64,000 nt of DNA, taken from Tausonia pullulans. Its lineage: Eukaryota > Basidiomycota > Tremellomycetes > Cystofilobasidiales > Mrakiaceae. The position numbers and the translations under genes were made by a program. Below, piece after piece: positions 8,514-58,638 of this stretch. The stretch lies in NCBI GenBank assembly GCA_951802195.1, contig OX637628.1:496001-560000 (forward strand), given 5' to 3'. Under the pieces are notes generated by a model. That model worked only from the letters and a program-made list of their open reading frames with translations. It had not been told where the DNA came from and made no database searches. Each line of letters opens with the position of its first letter. Within the stretch, counting starts at the first letter, position 1.

Positions 8514-11500
8514 TTAAAGACGCTGAGGGCCGACGGAACGACGCTTGCGGGCGGACGATCCCGTGGTGGTCCAGATCTGGAGAGGGCGCACGGTTCAGTA
8601 CAGCCATCTAAACTCCTCACGTCTCCACAAGTAGACAGACCTGGTTCGTGTTGCCTCCCACACAGCTCCAAGTCTGTCCGTTGTTACCGCTGTCGAGGCA
8701 CTGAGTTCCTCCGGTGATAGCGACATGGTTGTCTGGAAGAAAGCGGAAGTAGAGTTAGCGCGGGGTCGTCGTGCCCTCTTGGTCATGTTCGTTCAGCGCA
8801 CCATCAGTGTAGTACCTGGGGGACTTCCATGTCAGTCTTGAGTCTGTGCAAAGGAGGATTGACAGCCTACTGACCAATTCTGCTGCGAGACGCTTAGGCA
8901 GCTGTAGATCTTGGACGGAACGCCGTTGGCAGGGTCTGGACGACCGCAACTGAAGTCAGATCAACTCTTGCATCCTTTGAGCGTTCACTGTTATGCTTAC
9001 TCGAGCCAGCATCAAGGCAGAAGTTAGTTCCGGAAAGCTTGACGGCTCCAGCCCCACGGCTGATGTCCCAGGCCTTCTTGAAGCCGTTGTCGGTGTCAGA
9101 GCACGAGTAGATGTGAACGGGAGCGTTGTTGGCGATCGTTCCCTTAACACCGAGGCACTTGCTGTTGTCGTTGTTGGCTACCGGGTCATATCGCGTTTTC
9201 TGTCAGTCTCTTACAGACGCGGGGAAGCAGAATCGATGAACAAGCACGCACGATGGATCTGGATGCCACTGCCGGAGGATCCACCGGATGACCCTCCTCC
9301 GCCAGAAGGGTTGGTCGTAGCCTCAGAGGTCCAGACCTGAAAAGATGTCGGAAATATAAGTCACCGAGAGCCTCCGAGTGTCACAACAACCCAACGGACC
9401 TGGTTTGTGTTGCCGCCCACACAGCTCCAAGTCTGTCCGTTGTTACCGCTGTCGAGGCATTGGGATCCACCGGTGATGGCGATGTGGTTGTCTGCGCGGC
9501 GTCACAGCCAGGTTTAGCGTCAATTCACCGAGGTCAAGGCCCCTGTCACAACTTCTGCTCACCACCAGTGTAGTACCTGGGCAGAGAGGACTTCCATGTC
9601 AGTCTTGAGTCTGTGCAAAGGAGGATTGACAGCCTACTGACCAATTCTGCTGCGAGACGCTTAGGCAGCTGTAGATCTTGGACGGAACGCCGTTGGCAGG
9701 GTCTGGACGACCGCAACTGAAGTCAGATCAACTCTTGCATCCTTTGAGCGTTCACTGTTATGCTTACTCGAGCCAGCATCAAGGCAGAAGTTAGTTCCGG
9801 AAAGCTTGACGGCTCCAGCCCCACGGCTGATGTCCCAGGCCTTCTTGAAGCCGTTGTCGGTGTCAGAGCACGAGTAGATGTGAACGGGAGCGTTGTCGGC
9901 AATCGTTCCCTTGACACCGAGGCACTGGAGAGCAAAGGAGGGTCATCAATGGTTTATCAAACGTGACGAGGCGGCTCTCTGCTTGCTCACCTTCGAGCTG
10001 TCGCCGTTCGGGTGAATCGCCTGAGCTATTTCGAGAACACCTGTCAGACCCGGAGTCCAGAAGGCATATAAAAGATCGCTGCTACCAACAGTTTCCGCCC
10101 GAAGTCGCGGGAGCAGATGGGGCGGGCGTCGGACCAGCGGCTCCAGTGTTGGTGATAGTCGGGACAGCCTGGCACTGAGACGTGGCACCGGCAGGGTGAG
10201 GCGCAGGAGTGGGGTTCTGGCCCTGGTAGAAGGTCGAGGTGCCGTAGATTCCGGCTGCGGAGAAGAGCAGAGTTAACGCCACGAGTTACTGAAACCAGAA
10301 GAAAAGAGAAGAAGCTAACGCTTCTCAGCCGAGTCGCCCTTGCAGTTGCTGTCGTGAGAGTGGACTTGTCAGCTTATGGAGTATGAGGACAAAAGGGCGC
10401 TGTCGAAATTCACTCGAAGCGACCAGAGCTGAAGTCACCGGGGATGGTGAAGCCACAACCGAGAACATCTGAGGGGTGGAGAGGGGGGGAGGGGATTACG
10501 ATCAGAGAGAGACGCCCCTCGTCGAGCAGAGAGTCAAAGCGCACCGTAGATCTGCCGAGGAGAACATGGCAGTCAGGCATTATCCAGGCAGCAGAAGACA
10601 GAAGATCGACTCACGTGCTGACACCACTGGGTAGCTCCATCGCCGACGCAAGCCCGGAAGCAGAATTCGCCGCTTGAGATGAAGGAGGTCCACTCGTGGA
10701 TCTGCTGGAGATCGCCACCGAATGCCGAACCTGTGTCACGAGTGTCAGAACCTTGCTCTGTACCTGCCTTCTGCTATTATTTTCCCGAACTGACTGAACA
10801 CGAGCCCTCCGATTGGGTTCCCTTGGAGAATTTGATTGAAAAATGAAGCCAGTGTCAGCCGGAGAGCGTTAGGCTGTGGGCGCAGCGAAATTGGCGAACC
10901 CAGTCCGTCCGCGCCGTGTGGGTCGAGCTCTCCTCCATCCTGTGTGCGTGTGGGGCGGAGCGTGTCAGCGGCTCGGCGAAGAGATGCAGTAGAGTGTTTG
11001 ATTTACATCTCCGGCAGGGATATTCAAATTTGTGAGCTGCCCGACGCCCGTGATTTGAATGTAGTTAGGAGTTTGAACAAAGTGCGCGCCCTTGATGGTG
11101 CCGTCGGGGATGACACGGGTGCCACGGCCACCCTGGGTGCACCAGGCGACGACGATGCGCTCGGCATTGCCGATACTTGAGTCTCCGTACTCGGTCGTGG
11201 TCGAAGGGGGCGCCCTGCGAGTCATGGGCAGACAGGGGGGAAGGAGATCGACAAAGAATGAAGGCGCTGACCCGGGTCAGCGCCGATGCATAACCGACCG
11301 GAAGATGAGAGGCCCGAGGGAGGAGAGAAAGGAAGGGGATGTAGCTCACCAGAGGCAGAAGTCCGTGACCGAGTTGAGATAAGCCTGTTTGAGATGAGAG
11401 AATAGAGGCAGAGGGAAAGGAAAGAAAACAGTCAGCATGACCTACATAAACAAAAGACGGCTAGCGCCGATCGCCAGGGGTAACAGGGACATACGTTCTG

Positions 11501-12443: not shown

Positions 12444-12538
12444 TGATCGGAATGGGATTCGAACCCATGCCCGTGAAGACTAGCGTGTTCATTGAATGAA
12501 CCTTAAGCTAGCGCCTTAGACCGCTCGGCCATCCGACC
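12444..12538 (-). tRNA. tRNA-Leu(AAG) with a 15-nt intron
   Basis: Read on the minus strand: acceptor GGTCGGA pairs with TCCGATC, discriminator A. The D arm is GCCGAGCGGTCTAAGGC, and anticodon stem CTAGC pairs with GCTAG. The loop starts TTAAGG, giving anticodon AAG. Fifteen nucleotides (TTCATTCAATGAACA) after position 37 form the canonical tRNA intron. An 11-nt variable region suits a class II tRNA. T arm ATGGG-TTCGAAT-CCCAT. A LINE-derived element begins 85 bp upstream of its 5' end. Confidence 0.95.
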
Positions 12539-12623: not shown

Positions 12624-13139
12624 AACCACCATCCCGGTGGTTCGACCACCCCCCCCCCCCCCCCTCTCACGGCGCCCATCACGCCGTCCGGCCAACCATC
12701 CCCAGTGGTTCGACCAACCCCCCCCCCCCCTCTCACGGCGCCCATCACGCCGTCCGGCCAACCATCCCCAGTGGTTCGGCCAACCCCCTTCCGGCCAACC
12801 ACCATCCCCGGTGGTTCGACCAACCCCCCCCCCCCCCTTCTCACGGCGCCCATCACGCCGTCCGGCCAACCATCCCCGGTGGTTCGACCAACCCCCTTCC
12901 GGCCAACCACCATCCCGGTGGTTCGACCAACCCCCCCCCCCCCCCCTCTCACGGCGCCCATCACGCCGTCCGGCCAACCATCCCCAGTGGTTCGGCCAAC
13001 CCTCTTCCCACGGCGCCTCGCCCGACGTTCTCGCGCTCGGTCATGTCCGCTCTCCCTCTATCTAGCTACAACTCGCTATCTCTCATAGGGTTACCTCGTT
13101 CTCCACGTATAACTCATGACTTAAATACAAAAAAAAAAA
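12624..13139 (+). mobile_element. Short LINE-derived element: tandem 5' repeats plus LINE 3' tail and poly-A
   Basis: Starts with AACCACCATCCCGGTGG, the same 5' end as the complete LINE in the right part of the window. It runs through several copies of a C-rich repeat carrying CGGCGCCCATCACGCCG and a GGTGGTTCGACC motif, with C-runs of up to about 14. A short unique block follows (CCTCGCCCGACGTTCTCGCG...), then the LINE 3' tail (TATAACTCATGACTTAAATAC) and an A-run. No ORF1 or ORF2 sequence is inside. The same unit (51523-51970) sits at the 5' end of the complete LINE. It could be a non-autonomous partner sharing both ends with the LINE. Confidence 0.8.
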
Positions 13140-13540
13140 CGTCCGGCCAACCATCCCCAGTGGTTCGGCCAACCCTCTTCCCACGGTGCCTCGCCCGACG
13201 TTCTCGCGCTCGGTCATGTCCGCTCTCCCTCTATCTAGCTACAACTCGCTATCTCTCATAGGGTTTACCTCGTTCTCCACGTATAACTCATGACTTGAAT
13301 ACAAATACAAAAAAAAAGATTTTGCTCTCCCTCTATCTAGCTTCAACTTGTTTTCGCTCGTAGGGTTAACTCGTTCTCTACATATAACTCATGACTCAAA
13401 TACAATACAAAAGGATTGAAAAATCTTCATGAATCCTCCTCTATGGTCCCCCCTCCCTCTTTAGCAAGGATCTCTCTTCCCTTCCTCCCTCTCGATATCT
13501 CTAATATAATCATACTATGAACTGAATGCAACAAAAAAAA
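13140..13540 (+). repeat. Stack of further LINE-tail copies with increasing decay
   Basis: Three more 3'-tail copies follow head-to-tail, each ending in an A-run: 13140 to about 13317 (starts inside the 5' repeat, near-identical tail), about 13318-13412 (several changes, e.g. CATATAACTCATGACTCAAATAC), and about 13475-13540 (only weakly similar, ends GCAACAAAAAAAA). Similarity to the intact LINE tail drops with distance from tRNA-Leu. Confidence 0.75.
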
Positions 13541-14192: not shown

Positions 14193-14979
14193 TCAAGTAT
14201 TGGGCCAACCCGAACACCGGGGGAATCTGCAGTCGAGGTCTTTGGACCTGCGGGCGGCGCAAGGTTGTTCAAGAGCATCGTGGGGTTCGTTATCGAAGTC
14301 GTCGAGGGGATGCTTGGCGCAGGGTATGAAGCGGTCAAAGTATACCATCTTCGGGTAGATGTGGTAGCCGACGAAGCTGCATCGAGCAGTGAGCGGGAGA
14401 TCCTGAAACGTGACAATGGCCGGGCGGGTCTTCTGGGTCTTGAACGACATCGGTCTAGACGCGACCCGCATCGGCGTCACCCCCACAAGGGAGGGACGCC
14501 CAGGATCGTGAACGACTCGGTCTGGACACACCAGGCGTGGTGCGTAGCTAGAGCGCGAAGATGCCGCGGCCAGAGTCGTGGCCCGAGAGAAGGCCCGCCC
14601 GTCTGGTCGATGTCGACGATCGAGCCGACGGCAGACAGCAGGGGGCTGTGTATGGCGAGGCAGAAGAATGCGGGCGGGCGTCTTCGTTGGGCAGGGGTAT
14701 GGGGCGGTGGTGAGTGATATTGTCCCGGTCGGCCTCCGTCTGGAAGAGGAGGAGGATGTGCGGCTCCTCGCACTGGGAAGCGGGGTGAGAGCCTGTCTCG
14801 GGTATGCGGTCCAGCAAGCGGAGGGAGGAAGGTCAGACGGACGGGAGGCGGCAAGGTCTTCTGGCGAACGACGGCTCGGTGGCGGAAAATGTGGCGGGGG
14901 GCGGGTGGTGGGTGGTGGGGGGTAGGGGGTAGGGGGTAGAGGGTAGGGGGTAGAGCGGTCGCACCACCCGGTGGTGGTT
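14193..14979 (-). mobile_element. Decayed Tad-like LINE, left copy
   Basis: Its 5' end, on the minus strand, is AACCACCACCGGGTGGTGCGACC at 14979, a relative of the intact LINE's first bases. Downstream are remains of the reverse transcriptase: PETG...EPHILLLF with DRDNI (against HLIFKKKGDRDQIANYRP), and DIDQTG with SGHDSGR (against DQTGFLPGRDSGR). A direct jump leads to WCVQTESFTILGVP (against WRVQTLSFDFLGVP), then QDLPLTARCSF and MVYFDRFIPC (against HDLPLLARCNV and IIYLDRFLPC). The RT core with the FADD box is missing and several frames are needed, so it is dead. It lies 74 bp upstream of tRNA-Asn. Confidence 0.82.
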
Positions 14980-15053
14980 GTAAAAACGTTGTCCATCAAT
15001 GTGGATCCGACTATGTGAAGTGCCTTTGGAACAGCACCGCCATGTGTCTCGTT

Positions 15054-15126
15054 TCTCGGCTAGCTCAGTTGGTAGAGCGTCAGACTGTTAATCTGTAGGT
15101 CGACGGTTCGAACCCGTCGCTGAGAG
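15054..15126 (+). tRNA. tRNA-Asn(GTT), left copy
   Basis: Acceptor TCTCGGC pairs with GCTGAGA, D arm GCTCAGTTGGTAGAGC. Anticodon stem TCAGA/TCTGT encloses CTGTTAA, giving anticodon GTT at 15087-15089. T arm GACGG-TTCGAAC-CCGTC. No intron. A T-run follows at 15132-15136 as a likely RNA polymerase III terminator. An identical gene sits in the right inverted-repeat arm. Confidence 0.96.
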
Positions 15127-15890
15127 ATCCCTTTTTGCCCGCACAAGAAACTTGAAGTGCATACCTACCTACATCCATACCTACATCCATACCTAGCTCC
15201 ATATCTCTGACAAGATGATGAGAAGAAGCTTGCGGGATGTCGAGCCTGCGTCCGGAGGGGTACGGAGGGGTCCTCGTCCACGCCAGAACGCAACCGAGGT
15301 CTCCGTGTGCCGTCGAACGGGCCGATATCGAGACTATGGAGAGCGACCTGAGCAATCTGCGAATTCATATTCTCATTCAACTCTAGCCATCGAACCACAC
15401 GCAACTCTGAGCTCAAACAGCCGTAGTCAAGAGGAGAGGAGACGTCGACCCGCCGATCTGGTGAGTTCTCAGGCTGCCTGTACAAGAGATCCTCTTCCAG
15501 GAAGGGTCGCTGAAGCCATCGCGCAGTCACGCATCAAGGCAGCAGATCTGCCTCCTCTCGGCCCTGGAATCTACCGAGTGAATGCGCCGACACAGAGGGG
15601 GACGGACTCGATGCCCAAGCCCGAGTAGAGGCATGGATCGTACTGCCACGACTGTCACTACTGCCACTACTGCCAAAGGTGCCGTGCAAATCGAGCTTCA
15701 GAGCCACGCAGGACGGCTCAAGCCAAGCTCAGGGCTCGGGACCAGCCCACCTGCGGTAAGGGCTCTTGGATCGGGACCCCCTGAGGCGCTGGCTCGTGCG
15801 TGAAGAAGGGAAGGAGGGGGAGCTGGACGATGGGGCTGGAGCGCTGCACCTCATATCGGTCACGTGCCTTTTCCCCGCTTGCCAACTGTG

Positions 15891-15955
15891 GCCTGTATGG
15901 GCCTGTATGCGCTTGTATGCTCCTGTATGCCCCTGTATGCCCCTGTATGCCCCTG
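15891..15955. repeat. Minisatellite, 10-nt unit, left arm
   Basis: Six to seven copies of a unit near CCCTGTATGC, with the earlier units diverged. The mirror copy lies in the right arm. Confidence 0.9.
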
Positions 15956-16310
15956 CCCCACCCCCCCATCATCTCCAGTATCAGTGACCTCTCCCTGCCT
16001 TCCCCCTCGCTCTCTCTCACCCTGCAGCTGTGCAAACTAGGCCGGTGGATCTCGTCCAGTGCTGCTCATCGCCTCATGTAGGCAGGTCGGCCATCTAGCC
16101 AGCGCCCGCCCTCGAAGCTTGGCTAGAGGCACCCAGCTTGGGCGACGACATGAGATGACACGATACGACTGGGACAGCCGGCCTGACACGGCTCGAGACG
16201 GAGCGGTGCGCCTGGAGGCAAAGAAACGGTCGCCATCTCCTCCCTCCCGTTTGTTTGGTATCTGCTCATCGCACTCGTGCCCTGCATCCTTATCCCTCTG
16301 TCCCCATCAA

Positions 16311-49756: not shown

Positions 49757-50107
49757 CGGGGAGAAAGGGGTAAGGATGCAGAGCGCGAGTGCGATGAGCA
49801 GATACCAAACAAACGGGAGGGAGGAGATGGCGACCGTTTCTTTGCCTCCAGGCGCACCGCTCCGTCTCGAGCCGTGTCAGGCCGGCTGTCCCAGTCGTAT
49901 CGTGTCATCTCATGTCGTCGCCCAAGCTGGGTGCCTCTAGCCAAGCTTCGAGGGCGGGCGCTGGCTAGATGGCCGACCTGCCTACATGAGGCGATGAGCA
50001 GCACTGGACGAGATCCACCGGCCTAGTTTGCACAGCTGCAGGGTGAGAGAGAGCGAGGGGGAAGGCAGGGAGAGGTCACTGATACTGGAGATGATGGGGG
50101 GGTGGGG

Positions 50108-50172
50108 CAGGGGCATACAGGGGCATACAGGGGCATACAGGAGCATACAAGCGCATACAGGCCCATACAGGC
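50108..50172. repeat. Minisatellite, 10-nt unit, right arm
   Basis: Mirror image of the left-arm array (unit near GGGCATACAG), with about the same number of units. Confidence 0.9.
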
Positions 50173-51365
50173 CACAGTTGGCAAGCGGGGAAAAGGCACG
50201 TGACCGATATGAGGTGCAGCGCTCCAGCCCCATCGTCCAGCTCCCCCTCCTTCCCTTCTTCACGCACGAGCCAGCGCCTCAGGGGGTCCCGATCCAAGAG
50301 CACTTACCGCAGGTGGGCTGGTCCCGAGCCCTGAGCTTGTCCTGCCTAGCTCTGACGCTCGATTTTCATGGCACCTTTGGCAGTAGTGGCAGTAGTGGCA
50401 GTCGTGGCAGTACGATCCATGCCTCTCTTCGGGCTTGGGCATCGAGTCCGTCCCCCTCTGTGTCGGCGCATTCACTCGGTAGATTCCAGGGCCGAGAGGA
50501 GGCAGATCTGCTGCCTTGATGCGTGACTGCGCGATGGCTCCAGCGACCCTTTCTGGGAGAGGACTTCTTGTACAGGCAGCTTGAGTGTTCACCAGACCGG
50601 CGGGTCGACCATCGAACCAGGGGGGTCAAGGCTCGAGCGGACCGCTTTCCGCCATGGGAGCTCTCGATCCACTAGGATTCTTGGCGCCTCTACTCTCCTC
50701 TCCTCCCTATTCACGGCCGTTTTTCCTCGTCGGCTGGCGCCCAGACGTAGGCCGCGTTCACCGGTGGCCAGGCCGCATTCTCGCCTGACCGACCGGACGC
50801 TCGCTTTGGCATATGAAACTTAGATAAGGGAACGACTGGGCGTGAGACGGCACTCGAGTGCTTCGGACTCTGGTGTCTCACAGACACCACGGCTTAACAC
50901 CAATGTTAACTCTCTCTTTGCTGTCTCTCAAACGGCCATGTCATCCTTCTCTCTGATCCTTTCTTCCTGTTCACCTCTTGGCCTCTTTCGGGAGCACGCG
51001 CGCGTTAGCACGCTTCCCACTTCCCCTTCCGCCTCCTTCCATCCTCTTCCGCTCCCTTCCGCTCTCTCTCGTTGACTACGGCTGTTTGAGCTCAGAGTTG
51101 CGTGTGGTTCGATGGCTAGAGTTGAATGAGAATATGAATTCGCAGGTTGCTCAGGTCGCTCTCCATAGTCTCGATATCGGCCCGTTCGACGGCACACGGA
51201 GACCTCGGTTGCGTTCTGGCGTGGACGAGGACCCCTCCGGACGCAGGCTCGACATCCCGCAAGCTTCTTCTCATCATCTTGTCAGAGATATGGAGCTAGG
51301 TATGGATGTAGGTATGGATGTAGGTAGGTATGCACTTCAAGTTTCTTGTGCGGGCAAAAAGGGAT

Positions 51366-51438
51366 CTCTCAGCGACGGGTTCGAACCGTCGACCTACAGA
51401 TTAACAGTCTGACGCTCTACCAACTGAGCTAGCCGAGA
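51366..51438 (-). tRNA. tRNA-Asn(GTT), right copy
   Basis: Sequence identical to the left-arm tRNA-Asn, on the opposite strand. The LINE insertion point lies 84 bp upstream of its 5' end, and the element points away from the tRNA. Confidence 0.96.
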
Positions 51439-51512
51439 AACGAGACACATGGCGGTGCTGTTCCAAAGGCACTTCACATAGTCGGATCCACATTGATGGA
51501 CAACGTTTTTAC

Positions 51513-51522
51513 AACCACCACC
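51513..51522 (+). repeat. Target-site duplication of the LINE (5' copy; partner at 57775-57784)
   Basis: AACCACCACC directly before the element and again directly after its poly-A. The left arm has the single uninterrupted copy at 14970-14979 (reverse strand), proving the empty site. Confidence 0.92.
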
Positions 51523-51828
51523 AACCACCATCCCGGTGGTTCGACCAACCCCCCTCCCACGGCGCCCATCACGCCGTCCGGCCAACCATCCCCAGTGGTT
51601 CGACCAACCCCCTTCCGGCCAACCACCATCCCGGTGGTTCGACCAACCCCCTTCCGGCCAACCACCATCCCGGTGGTTCGACCAACCCCCCTCCCACGGC
51701 GCCCATCACGCCGTCCGGCCAACCATCCCCAGTGGTTCGACCAACCCCCTTCCGGCCAACCACCATCCCGGTGGTTCGACCAACCCCCTTTCGGCCAACC
51801 ACCATCCCCGGTGGTTCGACCAACCCTC
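51523..51828 (+). repeat. Tandem 5' UTR repeats of the LINE
   Basis: Alternating units of about 40 bp (CCTTCCGGCCAACCACCATC...) and about 60-65 bp (with CGGCGCCCATCACGCCGTCC). Each contains an imperfect palindrome ACCACC-N-GGTGGT followed by TCGACCAACC. The same units occur at the tRNA-Leu site. Tandem 5' repeats often act as promoter units in LINEs; that role here is inferred. Confidence 0.85.
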
Positions 51829-51995
51829 TTCCCACGGCGCCTCGCCCGACGTTCTCGCGCTCGGTCATGTCCGCTCTCCCTCTATCTAGCTACAACTCGC
51901 TATCTCTCATAGGGTTACCTCGTTCTCTACGTATAACTCATGACTTAAATACAAAAAAAAAAAAAAAAACAGGTCAATCCAGGTCACCCTACCTT

Positions 51996-53870
51996 ATGCC
52001 TAGTGAATCAACCCCCAAGCGACTCCAAGAAGCCCTCAAGGCTCCCAAGGATCCCCCAGACCCTCCCTCTCCAGCAAAGAGAAAGAGCGGATCCGATGAA
52101 ACCCCCAGCGTCCAGGACGCGACCAATACGCCCTCTCGCGTCGACGAACGTCCCCAAACGCTCGCCAACAAACCCACCCTCAGCCCACCTACCCATCCGA
52201 CCAGTCCTAGCACCCCTAGCACTCCTACCAACCCTACCAACCCTACCAACCCTACCACGCCCCACATCCATATCAGCCCCACGGCCCTCCTCTCTTCTCC
52301 CTCCCCCCTCCGCAGAACCCCTGCAACCCCCTCAACTCGCCGTATTACGCGGTCGAGCTCAGCCATCAGCGACCTCAATGCCGCTCTATCCTCAACGTCC
52401 GAAGTGACGCATCCCACACCGTCTCGCTCCACAGGCGAGACTCTCTCTCAACAACCTCTCTTCGTCCCCGGCGCCGCGTCGCCCGTGCCGGCGAACCCCG
52501 CCGACACTCGCACTCGCAATCGCGCCGCCGCGAAATCCCAGCCGAACGCCATCGGCCGCTCATATGCGCACGCCGCAAAACAGGCTCATTCTACAAACTC
52601 AGCTGCGAGGCAACGTGACTCGTCTAGCACCCAGCCCGGGTTCACCTTCGTCTTCGGAACCGATCAACAACCCCCGCAGGATAATACCCCAATCGCCCCA
52701 GCCTTGGCTACCGACCGCGGGAACTGTCTAGCCATCTCAGTCCCTCGAGATACCACTCCTTTCGAGATCTCTCTCGCAATCTCAAAGTGCGACGAACGAC
52801 TGTCTTTCATGATCCGTCCTGTCAAGGACCCAAAAGACAGAATGCTCCTTATAGTCAACTCCCGAGGAAATGCTCAAGACATCTTGACTCAACTACAGGC
52901 CCTCCCGCTGAATGTGAGAGGCGTCAAACCCCAGATCCACGCGTGCTACAATTCCCAAAACAAGCTCCTGCAAGAAGGTCTGCTGGTGAACTTCGAAGAC
53001 GAAGACGGAGTGGAGGAAGCTTTTCGCAAACAAGTAGAAGCTTCTGGAGACAGAGTCATCATATTCCAGCGTCAGTATTACGCCCGCCTACCCGGCGTCC
53101 CAACTGGCCGGGTTAGAGTCCTGCTCGACCTTTCTGGCTCCAAGACGATGCCAAGGGCGAATGCATTCCCTCAACAGCTACCCGGCTGGGTCAACCAACA
53201 TGTCATCTTCAAACCTGTCCAACCTGGCACTGGGACGAACTCTCCAGCTCGACCAGCCTCGTCATACTGCTATTACTGCCACTCATTTGAGCACGCTCGT
53301 GCCAAGTGTCCTACCGCTCCAGAGTGTGGCGGATGCGGATCGCACGCTCACCCATCGGCCCGATGCCCAGGTCGTCCAAAGGCAAATCTTCCAGCGAGTG
53401 CACGAGCACCAACCGAAGGACCCCCCCAACGACCTGTCGAACCGGGACCAGACCTGGATGGTTTCCAGCTTGTACAAAAATCCAAGAGGAGGTCACTGAA
53501 CAGGCCGACTGAAGCCATGACGGAGGTGACCACACCCCCTGCCCACGCCAGCCCCTCCCACTCCCACTCAGAGCAAGCACCGCGCAATGCGGGCTCGCAA
53601 CCCATTCGCACGCTGAGCGCCCTAGAGGAGGACAACGAGGGGGGTCTGGAGAGGACAGAAGACGGGATGCAGATCGAAGACGAGCATCCACCCCCCACTC
53701 CACCTCCCCTGTCACCATCGTCCCCCCCACCCCCATCCCCATCCCCGCCATCTTCGCTCCCCCTGAACCCACCCTCCACTCCTTCTCTCATCCCCTCCAC
53801 GCCGTCCTCCCAGGCATCCATCGAGCGCACCCTCGTGACCTTGGCTGAAGCCGAGGACATGGAAGAATAA
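51996..53870 (+). CDS. LINE ORF1 (Gag-like RNA-binding protein)
   Basis: A 624-residue protein. The first 250 residues are Pro/Ser/Thr-rich and disordered. A globular part follows with NCLAISVPRDTTPFEISLAI and a later LLVNFEDEDGVEEAFRKQVE that resembles the RNA-recognition fold of LINE ORF1 proteins. Two CCHC zinc knuckles follow: CYYCHSFEHARAKC and CGGCGSHAHPSARC, both CX2CX4HX4C. The tail is very Pro-rich and acidic. It would bind and package the element RNA. The frame is open upstream to 51732, but that part is repeat DNA; the ATG chosen is the first after the internal A-run. The stop codon shares its last base with the ORF2 start. Confidence 0.9.
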   Translation: MPSESTPKRLQEALKAPKDPPDPPSPAKRKSGSDETPSVQDATNTPSRVDERPQTLANKPTLSPPTHPTSPSTPSTPTNPTNPTNPTTPHIHISPTALLSSPSPLRRTPATPSTRRITRSSSAISDLNAALSSTSEVTHPTPSRSTGETLSQQPLFVPGAASPVPANPADTRTRNRAAAKSQPNAIGRSYAHAAKQAHSTNSAARQRDSSSTQPGFTFVFGTDQQPPQDNTPIAPALATDRGNCLAISVPRDTTPFEISLAISKCDERLSFMIRPVKDPKDRMLLIVNSRGNAQDILTQLQALPLNVRGVKPQIHACYNSQNKLLQEGLLVNFEDEDGVEEAFRKQVEASGDRVIIFQRQYYARLPGVPTGRVRVLLDLSGSKTMPRANAFPQQLPGWVNQHVIFKPVQPGTGTNSPARPASSYCYYCHSFEHARAKCPTAPECGGCGSHAHPSARCPGRPKANLPASARAPTEGPPQRPVEPGPDLDGFQLVQKSKRRSLNRPTEAMTEVTTPPAHASPSHSHSEQAPRNAGSQPIRTLSALEEDNEGGLERTEDGMQIEDEHPPPTPPPLSPSSPPPPSPSPPSSLPLNPPSTPSLIPSTPSSQASIERTLVTLAEAEDMEE

Positions 53871-56800
53871 TGGTGTACAACGATGTACAGATCGTCGCGG
53901 CGAACATCCAGAGGGTGTTCACGCGAGATCGCGCCCGCAGTCTCCTCCTCTCCCTCTATTCACGATCCAAGGCTGACATATACCTTCTCTCAGAAGTGGC
54001 ATGCACAACACCAGATCAGGTAGCGACCTGGACAGCCGAGTGTGAAGATATGGGCTTCGGCTCGATCTTTACGGTCGGCTGCCAGACTGCCATCCTCTGG
54101 CGGCATGCCTCTCGATTCCTCCCTCCCAATACCCCTCCGACTAGGATCAGATCCATCTCCCGCTCCTCCCCCATCCTACGAACCAACCTGACGGATGCCG
54201 TTTTTGTTATCGCCGGCGAAGCCGTCAGGGTGGCTGCAGTCTACGCCCCCTGCCGAGACAGCCAATCGAATGGCCGCTCGACAAAGGAGTTCCTCTCTAC
54301 TCTATCTCGCAAGATACCTGCCCACTCTGACATTCCTCTCCTCCTGGGCGGGGACTGGAACTGTGTGGAGGACAGCTACCTCGACGGGATGAGCCCATTT
54401 ACCCAGAACGTGGGGAAGGAGGAAATGTGCCGGCTGGTCCGGGACTTTGCCCTCTCCGACCCATACCGATCCTTATACCCGCTCCAGCGCGAGTACACTA
54501 ACTATACTGGCATCACGCGAGCAGATCGCCGCATCGATCGCTTCTACCTGTCCCCTCTACTCGCTAGCCGAGCCGTGCGACAGCGCTTCCTGCCACGCCC
54601 GACCGGCCATCTCTACTCTAGCCACAAGCCGATCGCACTCAGTCTCACCTTCCCCGGTGCAATAGAGCACGGTCCCGGATCGTACAAGATCGGAACACAC
54701 CTTCTGAAGATTACCGGTTTTGTTGAGTACTTCCTCTACCACGTTCCCAAGTGGTACCAAGATGCGCTCACCGAGATCAGGGACCCCTTCGAGGCCTGGG
54801 ACGAGACCAAGCTTCAGATAGCGGATCACGCGTCTGACATCTCAAGACACCTCGCCCGAATGAGCAGAGTGTCAGGCGGGGATCCACACAGGTCGATCCT
54901 CCATGGCCACGCTCTTCGAGCCCACCTCGAACCAGCCAACACAAGCGAGTATGCCGTCAAGCAGCGACTCAAGATCGTCCGCCAGGCCGACACTATCGCA
55001 GCCCTGCGGCCACTCGACAACCCAGCAGCCACAGCCATCGCAAACAACGAGAGCATTCTAGCTACAGCACACGCCTTCTACTCGACTCTCTATGAGACCA
55101 AGACGACGCCAGCTGCCGAGCACGCCAACGCCCTCCGATATGTCACCAACACACTCGACAACTCCCAGAGTCGGACCCTCGAGAAACCCTTCGAACTGGA
55201 CGAGCTCAGGCGGGCTACGTTCAGATCGAACCGTAACAAGACACCAGGAAGCGACGGGATCCCCGTCGAGTTCTACCAGGCCACTTGGGCTGTCGTCGGC
55301 CCGATCCTCCTCAGTCTGCTGAACCTCGTCCCGGAGACAGGCCTCCGATCCGCCTCACAGCGCGAGGCCCATATCCATCTCATCTTCAAGAAGAAGGGAG
55401 ATCGCGACCAGATTGCCAACTACCGTCCGATCTCGCTCATCAACGTTGACGCTCGCATCTTCTCCCTTGCCATCAACAGCCGCCTGCTCACCGTCGTGGA
55501 CACTCTCATCGACGGGGACCAGACAGGCTTCCTCCCTGGCCGCGACTCGGGTCGCAACATCTCCTCTCTCCAGCTCGCCATTGACGACGAAGACCTTTTA
55601 CCTGGCGTCCTCGCCCAAGTCGACTTTGAGAAGGCATACGACAGAGTATCGCACGACTTTGTTGGCCCCTGCCTCCGCCACATGGGGTTCGGTCCGCGCG
55701 CCGCCGCGTGGATCACCTCAACGATGACCTCCCAGACAGCTCGCCTCATGATCAACGGATGGATGGGCCAAGCCATCGACATCCGGTCTGGTGTCCGACA
55801 GGGCGATCCCGCAGCACCGACGATCTTCGCCCTCCTCCTGGAGCCGCTGGCATGTATGCTCCGCCATCGCCTCCCACCGGCCAATCCACCCCCTCTACAT
55901 GAGCGGAAGGTCCTTCTCTTTGCAGACGATCTAAGTATCCGGTGTCGGACCTGGTCGGAGGTCGATGAGGCGACGGTCTGCCTCCGAGAGTACGAGAAAG
56001 CCGCAGCAAGCAAGCTGAACTACCAGAAATCACTCCTTTATCCTCTAGGGTCATGCCGGACGGATGCACCAACGATGTACCACGAATGGCGCGTCCAAAC
56101 GCTGTCATTCGACTTCCTCGGCGTTCCATGCGGTCGCACGGTCAACGGTCCTGCTTGCTGGCGAGATGTCATCGGCAAGCTGAAGGCTCGTCTTGCTCGC
56201 ATCCCGCTGCACGACCTCCCTCTCCTTGCGCGATGCAACGTCATCAACCAGTACATCTACTCGAAAATCATCTACCTGGACCGCTTTCTACCGTGCCCAG
56301 ACGATATCCTGGAAGACCTCGAGGCAACGGCCTACAAGTCCCTCTACCGATCGAAACACCACGACGTCAGCAGGGAGCGTCTGGAAACCCCTCGAGACCT
56401 CGGCGGCTTCGGCTTCACGCCACTCCGATTCCGGCTCATCAAAGCGCGCGCCCAGTGGGCTGGCGATGTGCTCTTCCGACCGGAGCTTCCCGCATCGATC
56501 CGTATTCGCAAGCGGATCATCCATACCATGAGCCTCGACCCAGGGGCTTATAGAATGCTGACTCGCACCATCTTCAGGGATGGAGAGTTCATCAGTGGAC
56601 CCCGGCCCGCCAATTTCAGCTGGTTAGGCGTATTCCTTTCCCCAGTGGAAGGTCAATGGTTCTTCCCAGCCGTCTGGTGGAATGCCATCACAAAGCTCCA
56701 AGGAGCTCTCCCTGCACGATGGCAGGCTTACCTCCGGGCATGGTTCGAAGAAGTCAGCTTTGACATGAGTTACTGGAATCAAGACCGCTGGAGGAACGCT

Positions 56801-57544
56801 GTCCACTGGATGTCTACGTTCGGTACAGATGGCCAGTTGCGGATAGCTCTCCACCCTGGCCACACAAACCTGGGCCGGCTGAACGTTCCTCGTGAGCCCC
56901 ACGGCGCACACAGTCGTACTCTAGCCAACCGCGGCCTCATCATCCCAAAGGGGTGGCAAGACCACTTTCCGGCGCTTACCAAGATCGATTGGAAGCGTCA
57001 GTGGTGCTTGCTCAAGGCCGTGTCCCGAGCGTCGCCCGAAGACATCGACTTGGCCCATCGCTTCTCGCTGTACAGTCTCCACCCAGGGAAGCATACTGCT
57101 GCGCCATTCCTCGCCGACGGAACCGCTACGCCGCACAACAGGTCCAAGCGATGTGCGCTGTGCCTGACGGCCCCCGTTGAGTCCCTCTTCCACCTCTTCG
57201 ACGAGCCGTGTCCCGTCGTGGGCGCTATCTGGTCGGCTGCGGCAGCGCGTGCCTCTCCTTCACTCCCCTCCCATCCTCCGTCCCTCCAGACGCTTGTCTG
57301 CCCGACGCCGTCGCCGCCGAGGGCGACCTTCCTCTTCCACTGCATCTTTGTAGCCCGGACATGGCGATTCGTCCGGAGGCGGAGATACAGCAAGATCGCA
57401 GCCCTCGACCCTGTCACGGACGAGGAGATCCGCAAGATCGCGTCTACGATCCGGCAGACACACTGGCAGTCGAGCATGAGGTGGATGGCTGGCAGTGGCC
57501 AGATGGCTGGTACTGCTGTCGGTGCCGCCATCGATCCCGGGTGA
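53870..57544 (+). CDS. LINE ORF2: endonuclease and reverse transcriptase
   Basis: A 1224-residue polyprotein. The N-terminal endonuclease/exonuclease/phosphatase fold has AANIQRV, LLSEVA (Glu), YAPCRDS, LLGGDWNCV (Asp/Asn), RRIDRFYLSP and SSHKPIALSLTF (His). The reverse transcriptase has NKTPGSDGIPVEFYQATW, HLIFKKKGDRDQIANYRPIS, DQTGFLPGRDSGRNISS, QVDFEKAYDRVSHDF, SGVRQGDPAAPTIFALLLEP and LLFADDLSI with the catalytic Asp pair. A thumb region with DFLGVPCGR follows. The C terminus has a Cys/His cluster, RCALCLTAPVESLFHLFDEPC. No stop or frame break interrupts it. It would nick the target and prime cDNA synthesis there. The start overlaps the ORF1 stop (TAATG). Confidence 0.95.
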   Translation: MVYNDVQIVAANIQRVFTRDRARSLLLSLYSRSKADIYLLSEVACTTPDQVATWTAECEDMGFGSIFTVGCQTAILWRHASRFLPPNTPPTRIRSISRSSPILRTNLTDAVFVIAGEAVRVAAVYAPCRDSQSNGRSTKEFLSTLSRKIPAHSDIPLLLGGDWNCVEDSYLDGMSPFTQNVGKEEMCRLVRDFALSDPYRSLYPLQREYTNYTGITRADRRIDRFYLSPLLASRAVRQRFLPRPTGHLYSSHKPIALSLTFPGAIEHGPGSYKIGTHLLKITGFVEYFLYHVPKWYQDALTEIRDPFEAWDETKLQIADHASDISRHLARMSRVSGGDPHRSILHGHALRAHLEPANTSEYAVKQRLKIVRQADTIAALRPLDNPAATAIANNESILATAHAFYSTLYETKTTPAAEHANALRYVTNTLDNSQSRTLEKPFELDELRRATFRSNRNKTPGSDGIPVEFYQATWAVVGPILLSLLNLVPETGLRSASQREAHIHLIFKKKGDRDQIANYRPISLINVDARIFSLAINSRLLTVVDTLIDGDQTGFLPGRDSGRNISSLQLAIDDEDLLPGVLAQVDFEKAYDRVSHDFVGPCLRHMGFGPRAAAWITSTMTSQTARLMINGWMGQAIDIRSGVRQGDPAAPTIFALLLEPLACMLRHRLPPANPPPLHERKVLLFADDLSIRCRTWSEVDEATVCLREYEKAAASKLNYQKSLLYPLGSCRTDAPTMYHEWRVQTLSFDFLGVPCGRTVNGPACWRDVIGKLKARLARIPLHDLPLLARCNVINQYIYSKIIYLDRFLPCPDDILEDLEATAYKSLYRSKHHDVSRERLETPRDLGGFGFTPLRFRLIKARAQWAGDVLFRPELPASIRIRKRIIHTMSLDPGAYRMLTRTIFRDGEFISGPRPANFSWLGVFLSPVEGQWFFPAVWWNAITKLQGALPARWQAYLRAWFEEVSFDMSYWNQDRWRNAVHWMSTFGTDGQLRIALHPGHTNLGRLNVPREPHGAHSRTLANRGLIIPKGWQDHFPALTKIDWKRQWCLLKAVSRASPEDIDLAHRFSLYSLHPGKHTAAPFLADGTATPHNRSKRCALCLTAPVESLFHLFDEPCPVVGAIWSAAAARASPSLPSHPPSLQTLVCPTPSPPRATFLFHCIFVARTWRFVRRRRYSKIAALDPVTDEEIRKIASTIRQTHWQSSMRWMAGSGQMAGTAVGAAIDPG

Positions 57545-57774
57545 AAAGCAGGTCAGGGGTGGGGAAGTATGGCTGGTGGTACATCGCCAATGCTTGGTGT
57601 ATCTGGTCATCTTAATATCTTACCTTTTCTAATGGGCCTATGTCCATAACCCATCTTTTGTTTTCCTTCCATCCCTACTTTCATTTTCGCTTTCCTTCTA
57701 TCTAGCTACGAATCACCATCTCTCATAGAGTTACCTCGTTCTCTACGTATAACTCATGACTTAAATACAAAAAA
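57545..57774 (+). other. LINE 3' UTR and A-rich tail
   Basis: Ends with the block CTATCTAGCTACGAATCACC through TATAACTCATGACTTAAATAC and a run of A. This block recurs at 51880-51970 and four times with decreasing identity at 13060-13540, so it is the signature of this LINE family. Confidence 0.88.
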
Positions 57775-58317
57775 AACCACCACCGGGTGGTGCGACCGCT
57801 CTACCCCCTACCCTCTACCCCCTACCCCCTACCCCCCACCACCCACCACCCGCCCCCCGCCACATTTTCCGCCACCGAGCCGTCGTTCGCCAGAAGACCT
57901 TGCCGCCTCCCGTCCGTCTGACCTTCCTCCCTCCGCTTGCTGGACCGCATACCCGAGACAGGCTCTCACCCCGCTTCCCAGTGCGAGGAGCCGCACATCC
58001 TCCTCCTCTTCCAGACGGAGGCCGACCGAGACAATATCACTCACCACCGCCCCATACCCCTGCCCAACGAAGACGCCCGCCCGCATTCTTCTGCCTCGCC
58101 ATACACAGCCCCCTGCTGTCTGCCGTCGGCTCGATCGTCGACATCGACCAGACGGGCGGGCCTTCTCTCGGGCCACGACTCTGGCCGCAGCATCTTCGCG
58201 CTCTAGCTACGCACCACGCCTGGTGTGTCCAGACCGAGTCGTTCACGATCCTGGGCGTCCCTCCCTTGTGGGGGTGACGCCGATGCGGGTCGCGTCTAGA
58301 CCGATGTCGTTCAAGAC
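57775..58317 (+). mobile_element. Decayed Tad-like LINE, right copy (truncated by the inverted-repeat end)
   Basis: Right-arm counterpart of the left relic: the same GGTGGTGCGACC 5' end, the (CCCCCTA)-like run, the RT remnants PETG/EPHILLLF/SGHDSGR and then WCVQTESFTILGVP. It stops where homology between the arms stops, so the later LINE blocks seen in the left copy are absent. The younger LINE landed at its 5' edge. Confidence 0.8.
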
Positions 58318-58638
58318 CTGAAAGAATCCGTTCGACCCGTATCCCGCGGGATCCCTCCGTTTCTATCTCTCTCCCAACTTGGTCAATTCCCAGCTCTAAA
58401 TGACATGCATGCTTGCAAAGGGGAGGAAATGAATCACGAGAAGGATAGATGGAGTGAGGGGTGGAGTGGTGACGAGGTGTTTGAGGATCGTGGTGGTATA
58501 AAAGTACTGTTATACCTCCCCCTCTCTGGAGAGAAGGGTAGATAGGGCAATCCCGAGTGCGTATTCGTGGTACGATAAGGAGAGATCGGGGAGGGGCCAG
58601 GGGTTGGAGGAGGAGGTGAAGCGCGCCAATCTCCCCGT
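58318..58638. other. 3' flank of TIM23
   Basis: Single-copy DNA beyond the inverted repeat. No gene supported. Confidence 0.45.

Follow-up and report, generated by a model that had tools for sequence, protein, structure and literature searches.

Among the matches listed in the open-access literature, LINEs directed to tRNA genes were found in print in social amoebae only (passages of papers including the 2018 review PMC5911963). According to passages of PMC5391098 and PMC5911963, the non-LTR element TRE5-A inserts upstream of tRNA genes and can reach nearly all of them, its 5′ end strictly faces the 5′ end of the tRNA gene, and it produces target-site duplications. Excerpts of PMC5006619 place two further non-LTR elements distantly related to the TREs, NLTR-A of D. 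purpureum and NLTR-B of P. pallidum, upstream of tRNA genes. Elements of the Ty3-like type insert no more than about 10 bp from the start site, and Ty1 over about 1 kb (excerpt of PMC5911963). In the genome of Tausonia pullulans, target-primed reverse transcription very probably places a LINE and a short partner element upstream of tRNA genes, at a distance of about 83 bp; the element turns its 5′ end toward the gene, and we infer tethering by the Pol III machinery.

Three tRNA genes were detected at the Rfam gathering threshold in the 64-kb window, which is the whole stretch of DNA analyzed, at 12444-12538 (−), 15054-15126 (+), and 51366-51438 (−), and the elements at all three point away from the tRNA. 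The features at these sites are the following:

12444-12538, − strand: tRNA gene, the first target (Rfam tRNA, 48.1 bits; ARAGORN)
12624-13139, + strand: short non-autonomous element with tandem repeats and a LINE-like tail, nearest the target tRNA (82% to 51523-51963)
13140-13319, + strand: second, truncated short element with a more diverged tail (sequence comparison)
13320-13412, + strand: third tail fragment in this array, with the greatest divergence among the three tails (sequence comparison)
14436-14979, − strand: remains of a related, older LINE at −74 from tRNA-Asn, in the empty-site copy of the block (99.6% to 57775-58318)
15054-15126, + strand: tRNA-Asn(GTT) in the inverted-duplication copy that lacks the new LINE (Rfam)
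51366-51438, − strand: tRNA-Asn(GTT) in the inverted-duplication copy that carries the new insertions (Rfam)
51523-51971, + strand: short non-autonomous element with the LINE-shared tail and poly(A) (sequence comparison)
57775-58318, + strand: older LINE remnant behind the new LINE, the same as 14979-14436 (43% protein identity to the ORF2 reverse transcriptase)

The isotype of the gene at 12444-12538 is uncertain, as it was read as Leu(TAA) by hand and as Val(aac) by ARAGORN with introns allowed. The motif AACCACC, which marks the element 5′ end, has its first base at 12624, 85 bp from this gene; near the tRNA at 51366-51438 it occurs twice, at 51513 (distance 74 bp) and at 51523 (84 bp), and the older remnant starts 74 bp from the tRNA-Asn at 15054-15126. 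A sequence-only reading had described three LINE insertions 74-85 bp from tRNA 5′ ends and pointing away; its distances and orientation hold, but the independence of the two Asn sites and the identity of the elements do not. The piece at −84/−85 is not the LINE body but a short element of ∼450-520 bp, and at the tRNA at 51366-51438 the LINE (51972-57773) sits behind this short element. Both tRNA-Asn sites belong to a single inverted duplication and are not independent, because 14436-14979 matches 58318-57775 at 99.6%, 14970-15438 matches 51522-51062 at 97.2%, and 15444-16305 matches 50609-49758 at 96%. The copy of the block at 15054 is without the 6.25 kb insert and represents the new LINE's empty site. 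The remnant at this site, previously taken for an older decayed copy of the same LINE, is a different, older relative found in both copies of the block, with 67% nucleotide identity to the LINE over 284 bases and 43% protein identity in the reverse transcriptase over 96 residues. Since the Asn sites are duplicated and the remnant is a separate older element, the window contains two independent loci and at least three insertion events.

The LINE itself consists of these parts:

51513-51522, + strand: AACCACCACC, the LINE 5′ end motif; the short element lies between it and the LINE body (sequence)
51972-57773, + strand: LINE body with both ORFs open (sequence)
51996-53870, + strand: ORF1, 624 aa, with two CCHC motifs seen by eye
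53870-57544, + strand: ORF2, 1224 aa, with an endonuclease-like region and a reverse transcriptase
57681-57773, + strand: conserved LINE tail, followed by an A run

The 5′ end motif AACCACCACC is also present at L012, L026, L058, and L063-L065, and the stop codon of ORF1 overlaps the start of ORF2 (TAATG). In the Pfam scan of ORF2 no RNase H domain was found, and Exo_endo_phos reached 21.8 bits, which is below the cut-off of 24.5; ORF2 also matched the L1 endonuclease structure weakly (E 0.0014). Among solved structures the reverse transcriptase is most similar to that of L1 ORF2 (E 1.8e-44 for human L1 ORF2p vs 2.9e-15 for R2). The nearest named relatives of ORF2 among 11 named rows are Microbotryum LINEs (BQ2448_3433 and others), with 32-39% identity, and in the tree they form one supported group with ORF2, apart from the RNase H-bearing rows. 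Tad1 elements carry RNase H. The lack of a detected RNase H and the grouping with Microbotryum LINEs do not support the initial description of the LINE as Tad-like; kinship to Tad1 was judged by these two features, and a named Tad1 sequence was absent from the ORF2 matches compared. No ORF2 relatives were found in viral contigs in a scan with ORF2. For one gene of the window, the search gave only a metagenome protein, at 100% identity, and the kin of ORF2 alone would place the host among basidiomycetes near Microbotryum.

The tails of the short element and of the LINE are 90.6% alike, and direct repeats are found also at short elements, e.g., at L033 and L041. With a 3′ tail in common with the LINE and target-site duplications of its own, the short non-autonomous partner is SINE-like in these two features. 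The copy at 51523-51971 contains seven GGTTCGACC repeats, no TTTT, and no full B box. The GGTTCGACC repeats are similar to B boxes, and they may help this passenger in reaching or keeping the Pol III complex.

The relation of the elements to tRNA genes was then measured on a genome sample defined by the exact tail of the element, in which the 100 positions listed for contigs C1 to C5 gave 52 clusters, 51 of them resolved on the 5′ side. The data showed that 45 of the 51 resolved clusters were head-to-head with a tRNA called by ARAGORN, 38-133 bp from its 5′ end. In 56 tRNA-element pairs, representing ∼16 isotypes, the median distance was 83 bp (quartiles 73-89), and all 56 pairs within 140 bp, each formed with the nearest element match on the 5′ side of the tRNA, pointed away from the tRNA, so that the two 5′ ends face each other, in regions that were cut on the 5′ side of the elements and in which tRNAs beyond element 3′ ends were mostly out of view. 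Hence, the check that had been proposed for the window sites, the distance and orientation to the nearest tRNA, gave a sharp head-to-head peak when run on this sample. The best matches to window positions 51300-52500 were also head-to-head at eight of eight loci, 68-102 bp from a tRNA, for a query that itself contained tRNA-Asn and with L001 being the window site and L008 the same locus as L019. The pattern was present in 18 of 20 10-kb segments, which were cut on the 5′ side of insertions, as compared to a mean of 0.11 and a maximum of 4 in 20,000 random placements within the same segment. The length of tRNA introns did not correlate with the distance (Spearman −0.06, P 0.64), and the standard deviation of the distance was 15 bp from the tRNA 5′ end vs 26 from the 3′ end, which indicates that the distance tracks the 5′ end and not the 3′ end of the tRNA. 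The overlapping copies L001, L019, and L028, of the window site, L008, and L027, respectively, were left out of the distance, tail, motif, and repeat counts (only L001 and L028 in the junction reading), and pairs beyond 140 bp were left out of the flank, junction, tail, distance, motif, and direct-repeat counts. The tRNA-flank geometry is real and far stronger than the three window sites show, and the narrow upstream window together with the orientation places the LINE in the tRNA-gene-targeted non-LTR class, in the functional, TRE5-like sense.

These data also bear on the explanation that a few blocks of tRNA plus LINE were copied around the genome. Such duplication is true for the two Asn sites, for L029/L030, and for L048/L049, and several mirrored or tandem tRNA spacings in the tRNA list suggest it elsewhere. 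On the other hand, 54 distinct tRNA 5′ flanks were counted in 60 pairs, from ∼16 isotypes, and both the truncation points and the direct repeats differ, so copying does not explain the pattern and is refuted as its general cause, with a negligible probability left to it. The original reading, which pointed to two different tRNA families being hit, had named a larger duplicated block as grounds for refuting it; such a block is present for the two Asn sites only, and the flanks in the sample uphold its conclusion that copying of one locus is no explanation.

Six of the 51 resolved clusters did not fit the pattern on ARAGORN calls. At L018 no tRNA was found on the 5′ side, and at L013 there was no Rfam tRNA, only an A/B-box-like sequence seen by eye. 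L029/L030, one duplicated locus (97% over 684 bp), has tRNA-Asp at ∼260 bp, and L048/L049, likewise one duplicated locus (99.7% over 1746 bp), has tRNA-Ser at 565 bp and a sub-threshold tRNA-like stretch nearer than this gene. tRNAs without an insertion of their own in view were seen at L006, L031, L033, L035, L037, and L065. When counted from the tRNA side, in a list of 63 scored genes of 897 candidates, 14 of the 29 top-scoring tRNAs on C1-C5 had an exact tail on the 5′ side that pointed away and was no more than 7 kb distant, and two of 29 had one on the 3′ side. For 33 tRNAs of other contigs and one of C1, with C21:5794 left out, a listed element match was present within 2 kb on the 5′ side in nine of 34 (seven away and two toward), and on the 3′ side in three of 34. 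Because the element lists are incomplete, 14/29 and 9/34 are not occupancy rates. A composite pattern of B box, fixed gap, and element start was tried as a genome-wide count and rejected, as it gave nine matches at the expected gap vs seven at a gap 100 bp longer, and two for the LINE start; it is uninformative because introns and 5′ variants lose most true cases, while repeats of the short element feed the shifted control.

The junctions describe the mode of insertion. Direct repeats of at least 7 bases between the two junctions were found in 14 of 48 loci, as compared to a mean of 2.9 and a maximum of 8 in 500 shuffled pairings of left and right ends from different loci, and they were not found in the other 34. 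The repeats at L021 (CTTTTGTC), L040 (ATCCCTTTTCAA), and L051 (CATCCAATTT) are examples, and their sequences vary between loci. The 5′ truncation is variable and A tails are present; together with the direct repeats, these features indicate ordinary, target-primed LINE insertion. It is very unlikely that the endonuclease recognizes a motif at −83 of tRNA genes. Many elements start with C-AACCACC, there is a weak bias at the last base of the flank (0.48 bits), and in some arrays AACCACC of older copies offers a landing site (L005). The base bias is, however, at the shuffle limit and may be the element's own, and the direct repeats vary by locus; the search to the left of 28 flanks gave no motif that the targets share (best column, 0.48 bits; null 95%, 0.477).

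The order of copies within arrays is similarly regular, as the tRNA-proximal tail was less diverged in 12 of 17 adjacent pairs, with five ties and none reversed (P 0.0005). This observation is important for the explanation by survivorship, according to which LINE insertions would occur anywhere in a compact genome and selection would spare only those next to tRNA genes, where other genes are sparse. At 23.86 Mb the genome is small, and the flanks of tRNA genes are known to be safe for mobile DNA (passage of PMC5006619). Selection, however, would fix neither the orientation nor a peak at 73-89 bp, and older copies offer kilobases of harmless DNA, yet less diverged copies sit on the tRNA side of them, which leaves survivorship most improbable.

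How the elements reach this position could be explained by tethering. The RNA-protein complex of the element would be held by the Pol III initiation complex, through TFIIIB or through TFIIIC on boxes A and B; this would place a non-specific endonuclease just upstream of the initiation complex, and the short element would ride on the LINE proteins via the common tail. Alternatively, the elements could enter DNA that is bent or free of nucleosomes on the upstream side of active tRNA genes, without touching TFIIIB or TFIIIC directly, which we regard as unlikely. Ty1, which uses the first nucleosome, is a precedent for chromatin-based entry, the spread of 38-133 bp is broad, and −83 lies beyond the TFIIIB footprint of the yeast 5S gene, −40 to +5 (excerpt of PMC5391098). 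What speaks against it is that a strict orientation is reported for TRE5-A too, whose ORF1 binds TBP in vitro (excerpts of PMC5391098); no observation here separates chromatin entry from tethering. Matches to U6 were found at C1:1926557, C1:1974943, and, weakly, C5:145573, and a 5S match at C5:1466238. Since no element among those listed lies beside them, with the sequence seen for C1:1974943 (L018) only, a generality for Pol III genes is without support.

The chances are about even that a fungal LINE lineage evolved Pol III-guided insertion independently, with a new distance of −83 and a target shared with a short passenger. A fungal case would show that LINEs, without an integrase, reached the safe haven of tRNA genes more than once, and it would offer a second system for how an endonuclease-reverse transcriptase complex reads the Pol III machinery. 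New copies tend to insert on the tRNA side of the previous copy, so that tRNA flanks would be ordered records of past insertions, and such arrays may permit relative dating of insertions at single tRNA genes.

Compared by placement, the LINE resembles Dictyostelium TRE5-A in being a non-LTR element on the upstream side of tRNA genes with the same orientation and target-site duplications. It differs in its host, in a distance of −83 with a wider spread of 38-133 bp, as compared to the TRE5-A peak at −47 (±3), and in the short partner with a shared tail that stacks before the LINE. NLTR-A and NLTR-B, at 2-6 bp and ∼50 bp, respectively, also lie at other distances from the tRNA than −83, and both elements carry RNase H (excerpts of PMC5006619), which was not found here. 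The comparison with the Microbotryum LINEs covers ORF2. The non-LTR elements Zorro3 of Candida and Cnl1 of Cryptococcus are likewise fungal and target-biased, but their targets are poly(A) tracts and telomeres (passage of PMC7175516), while here they are tRNA genes. The fungal elements Ty3 (yeast), Tj1, the Yarrowia elements Tyl6, Ylt1, and Tyl3, and Ty1 also insert upstream of tRNA genes, but these are LTR elements that rely on an integrase (passages of PMC5911963), unlike the LINE described here.

Three tRNA genes, with 5′ ends at 12538, 15054 and 51438, were found in the window by Rfam at the gathering threshold, at the positions named in the sequence-only reading, which had described three insertions of one LINE family 74–85 bp from these genes, all pointing away from them. 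This geometry was confirmed, but the count of sites was not, because the two tRNA-Asn sites belong to a single inverted duplication, with copies about 36 kb apart and three blocks 96–99.6% alike. Both copies also share, 74 bp from the tRNA, what remains of an older, decayed LINE, whose protein is 43% identical to ORF2 over 96 residues, and hence the two Asn sites do not count as two independent targets. A new insert of 6.25 kb is present in the copy at 51438 and absent from the copy at 15054, so that the window shows both a filled and an empty site. Three separate insertion times, those of the old LINE, the new LINE and a short element, are seen at the Asn sites.

The insert at 51438 consists of two elements, with the short element in front of the LINE:
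51523-51971: short element, with tandem repeats and a tail (conserved 3′ end) 90.6% like the LINE tail
51972-57773: LINE body
ORF1 of the LINE: 624 aa, with CCHC motifs read by eye
ORF2 of the LINE: 1224 aa, overlapping ORF1 as TAATG

A reverse transcriptase was detected in ORF2 (Pfam, 4.6e-25), the endonuclease match was weak and under the Pfam cut-off, and the nearest solved structure was human L1 ORF2p (1.8e-44). At other loci the LINE starts with AACCACCACCAGGTCA, while the short element starts with AACCACCATCCC. At the 51438 site the first ten LINE bases are located at 51513-51522, separated from the LINE by the short element. The LINE adjoins the tRNA without the short element at loci L012, L026, L058 and L063-L065, which suggests that each element moves on its own. 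The repeat GGTTCGACC, which resembles a B box, occurs seven times in the short element (51523-51971), where a TTTT terminator for Pol III is absent.

The genome sampled comprised 23.86 Mb on 21 contigs, in which a 25-mer from the tail had 425 matches at up to three mismatches, while the reversed control had none. The census was based on 100 exact tail places among the matches listed, on contigs C1 to C5:1042680, a sampling which favours young copies. These places formed 52 clusters, or 51 resolved clusters without C4:114681. The 5′ side was taken per cluster and reached only about 265–290 bp past the 5′-most tail, with any tRNA beyond the 3′ ends mostly out of view. At C2:1724831, C3:411600, C4:195046, C5:220047, C5:451749 and C5:888004 the pairing of the tail with the 5′ end relied on the span between them, across LINE body that was not retrieved; at C5:451749 this span falls about 600 bp below the length of a full LINE. 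The data showed that in 45 of the 51 resolved clusters, for the exact tails listed, a tRNA called by ARAGORN was positioned head-to-head with the element at 38–133 bp. The same arrangement was observed at all eight best-match loci for window 51300-52500 (68–102 bp). The targeted isotypes, as named by ARAGORN, include Asn, Asp, Lys, Pro, Phe, Glu, Ile, Ala, Val, Gly, Ser, Trp, Arg, Leu, Met and Cys. The genome sample upholds and much strengthens the proposal, made from the window, that this LINE is targeted to tRNA genes.

Six clusters were counted as misses (L013, L018, L029, L030, L048 and L049). L029 and L030 represent a single locus that is duplicated (97%) and has a tRNA-Asp at about 260 bp, and L048 and L049 another (99.7%) with a tRNA-Ser at 565 bp. 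Between this tRNA-Ser and the element, a stretch at L048:774-883 (-), also present in L049, scored 24.8 bits as tRNA-like (cut-off 29) and 31 bits as YrlA, a Y RNA-like family (cut-off 69); it may be a degraded tRNA or a Pol III gene that lacks annotation. The surroundings of the L018 insertion contained neither a tRNA nor a plausible Rfam match, and those of the L013 insertion no tRNA by Rfam or ARAGORN. By eye, a sequence resembling A and B boxes was noticed at L013:560-630 (+), about 60 bp from the insertion.

The distance was compared in 56 pairs of a tRNA gene and its nearest element (45 clusters, 6 further best-match loci and 3 pairs from the window, plus an additional tRNA from each of L027 and L065, with overlapping loci L019 and L028 represented by L008 and L027). 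The median was 83 bp, with quartiles of 73 and 89 and a range of 38–133. Intron length had no effect on the distance in these pairs, and the standard deviation was 15 when measured from the tRNA 5′ end versus 26 from the 3′ end, which places the origin of the ruler close to the transcription start or box A, and not box B. The arrangement was observed in 18 of 20 ten-kb segments, as compared to a mean of 0.11 of 20 under random placement in the same segments. A shared target motif was not found in 28 flanks. Each element match listed 3′ of a tRNA was either counted for another tRNA (L027, L028, L035, L037 and L065; at least 446 bp away) or 36 kb off (in the window).

The 5′ truncation points vary among copies, and the tail is followed by an A run. 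At least seven bases were common to the left and right junctions in 14 of 48 loci (mean 2.9 and maximum 8 in 500 shuffled pairings), while at five bases the numbers were 35 versus 14.4 loci, so the shortest junction repeats are partly due to chance. These features are consistent with target-primed reverse transcription. Among 17 adjacent pairs in arrays, from 14 loci, the tail closer to the tRNA was less diverged in 12, more diverged in none and tied in five (P 0.0005); in three of the 12 the difference is one base and may reflect LINE versus short-element type rather than age, and the remaining nine all point in the same direction. The far side of arrays was less covered than the near side, a bias which opposes this result. 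In these arrays, therefore, a new copy tends to enter at the same position as its predecessors, displacing them outward.

Several duplications were noticed alongside. At C2:363999-400571 LINE tails are spaced exactly 6096 or 6286 bp, with short-element matches repeating in step, which is probably a tandem array arisen by duplication and not separate insertions. Mirrored or tandem tRNA sets with equal inner spacing were seen at C6:687292-709442, C6:991766-1002694 and C2:1653098-1734362, and likewise in the window (14436-16305 and 49758-58318), with L029/L030 and L048/L049 as two more duplicated pairs; perhaps such sets arose by recombination between targeted repeats. The window also contains a direct repeat of about 530 bp (8635-9159 and 9394-9926, 89% alike).

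In a quick tree, ORF2 grouped with LINEs of Microbotryum and with unnamed ones from metagenomes (support 100), separately from the rows that carry RNase H; it sits on a long end branch, and its best identity is 37–40%. ORF1 had one close relative, the metagenome protein P0071 (78% identical overall); by eye, the two ends of P0071 look near-identical to those of ORF1 (51996-53867), and its middle part clearly diverged. The non-LTR cases of tRNA targeting named in passages of a 2018 review are dictyostelid elements (PMC5911963), and no tRNA-targeted fungal LINE was found in those passages or in searches of open-access papers; one may have been described elsewhere.

On the simplest reading, a protein would tether the element to the Pol III initiation complex. 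The Dictyostelium element TRE5-A is described as having the same orientation relative to the tRNA as this LINE, a peak at -47, a need for the B box, and binding of ORF1 to TBP in vitro (PMC5391098), while the peak observed here is at about -83. A cut at -83 is farther out than the TFIIIB footprint on the yeast 5S gene, given there as -40 to +5 (PMC5391098), and thus the determinant of the distance may be TFIIIC, a larger complex or the first nucleosome. In its way of working this LINE is like TRE5, a likeness that implies no assignment to TRE or Tad.
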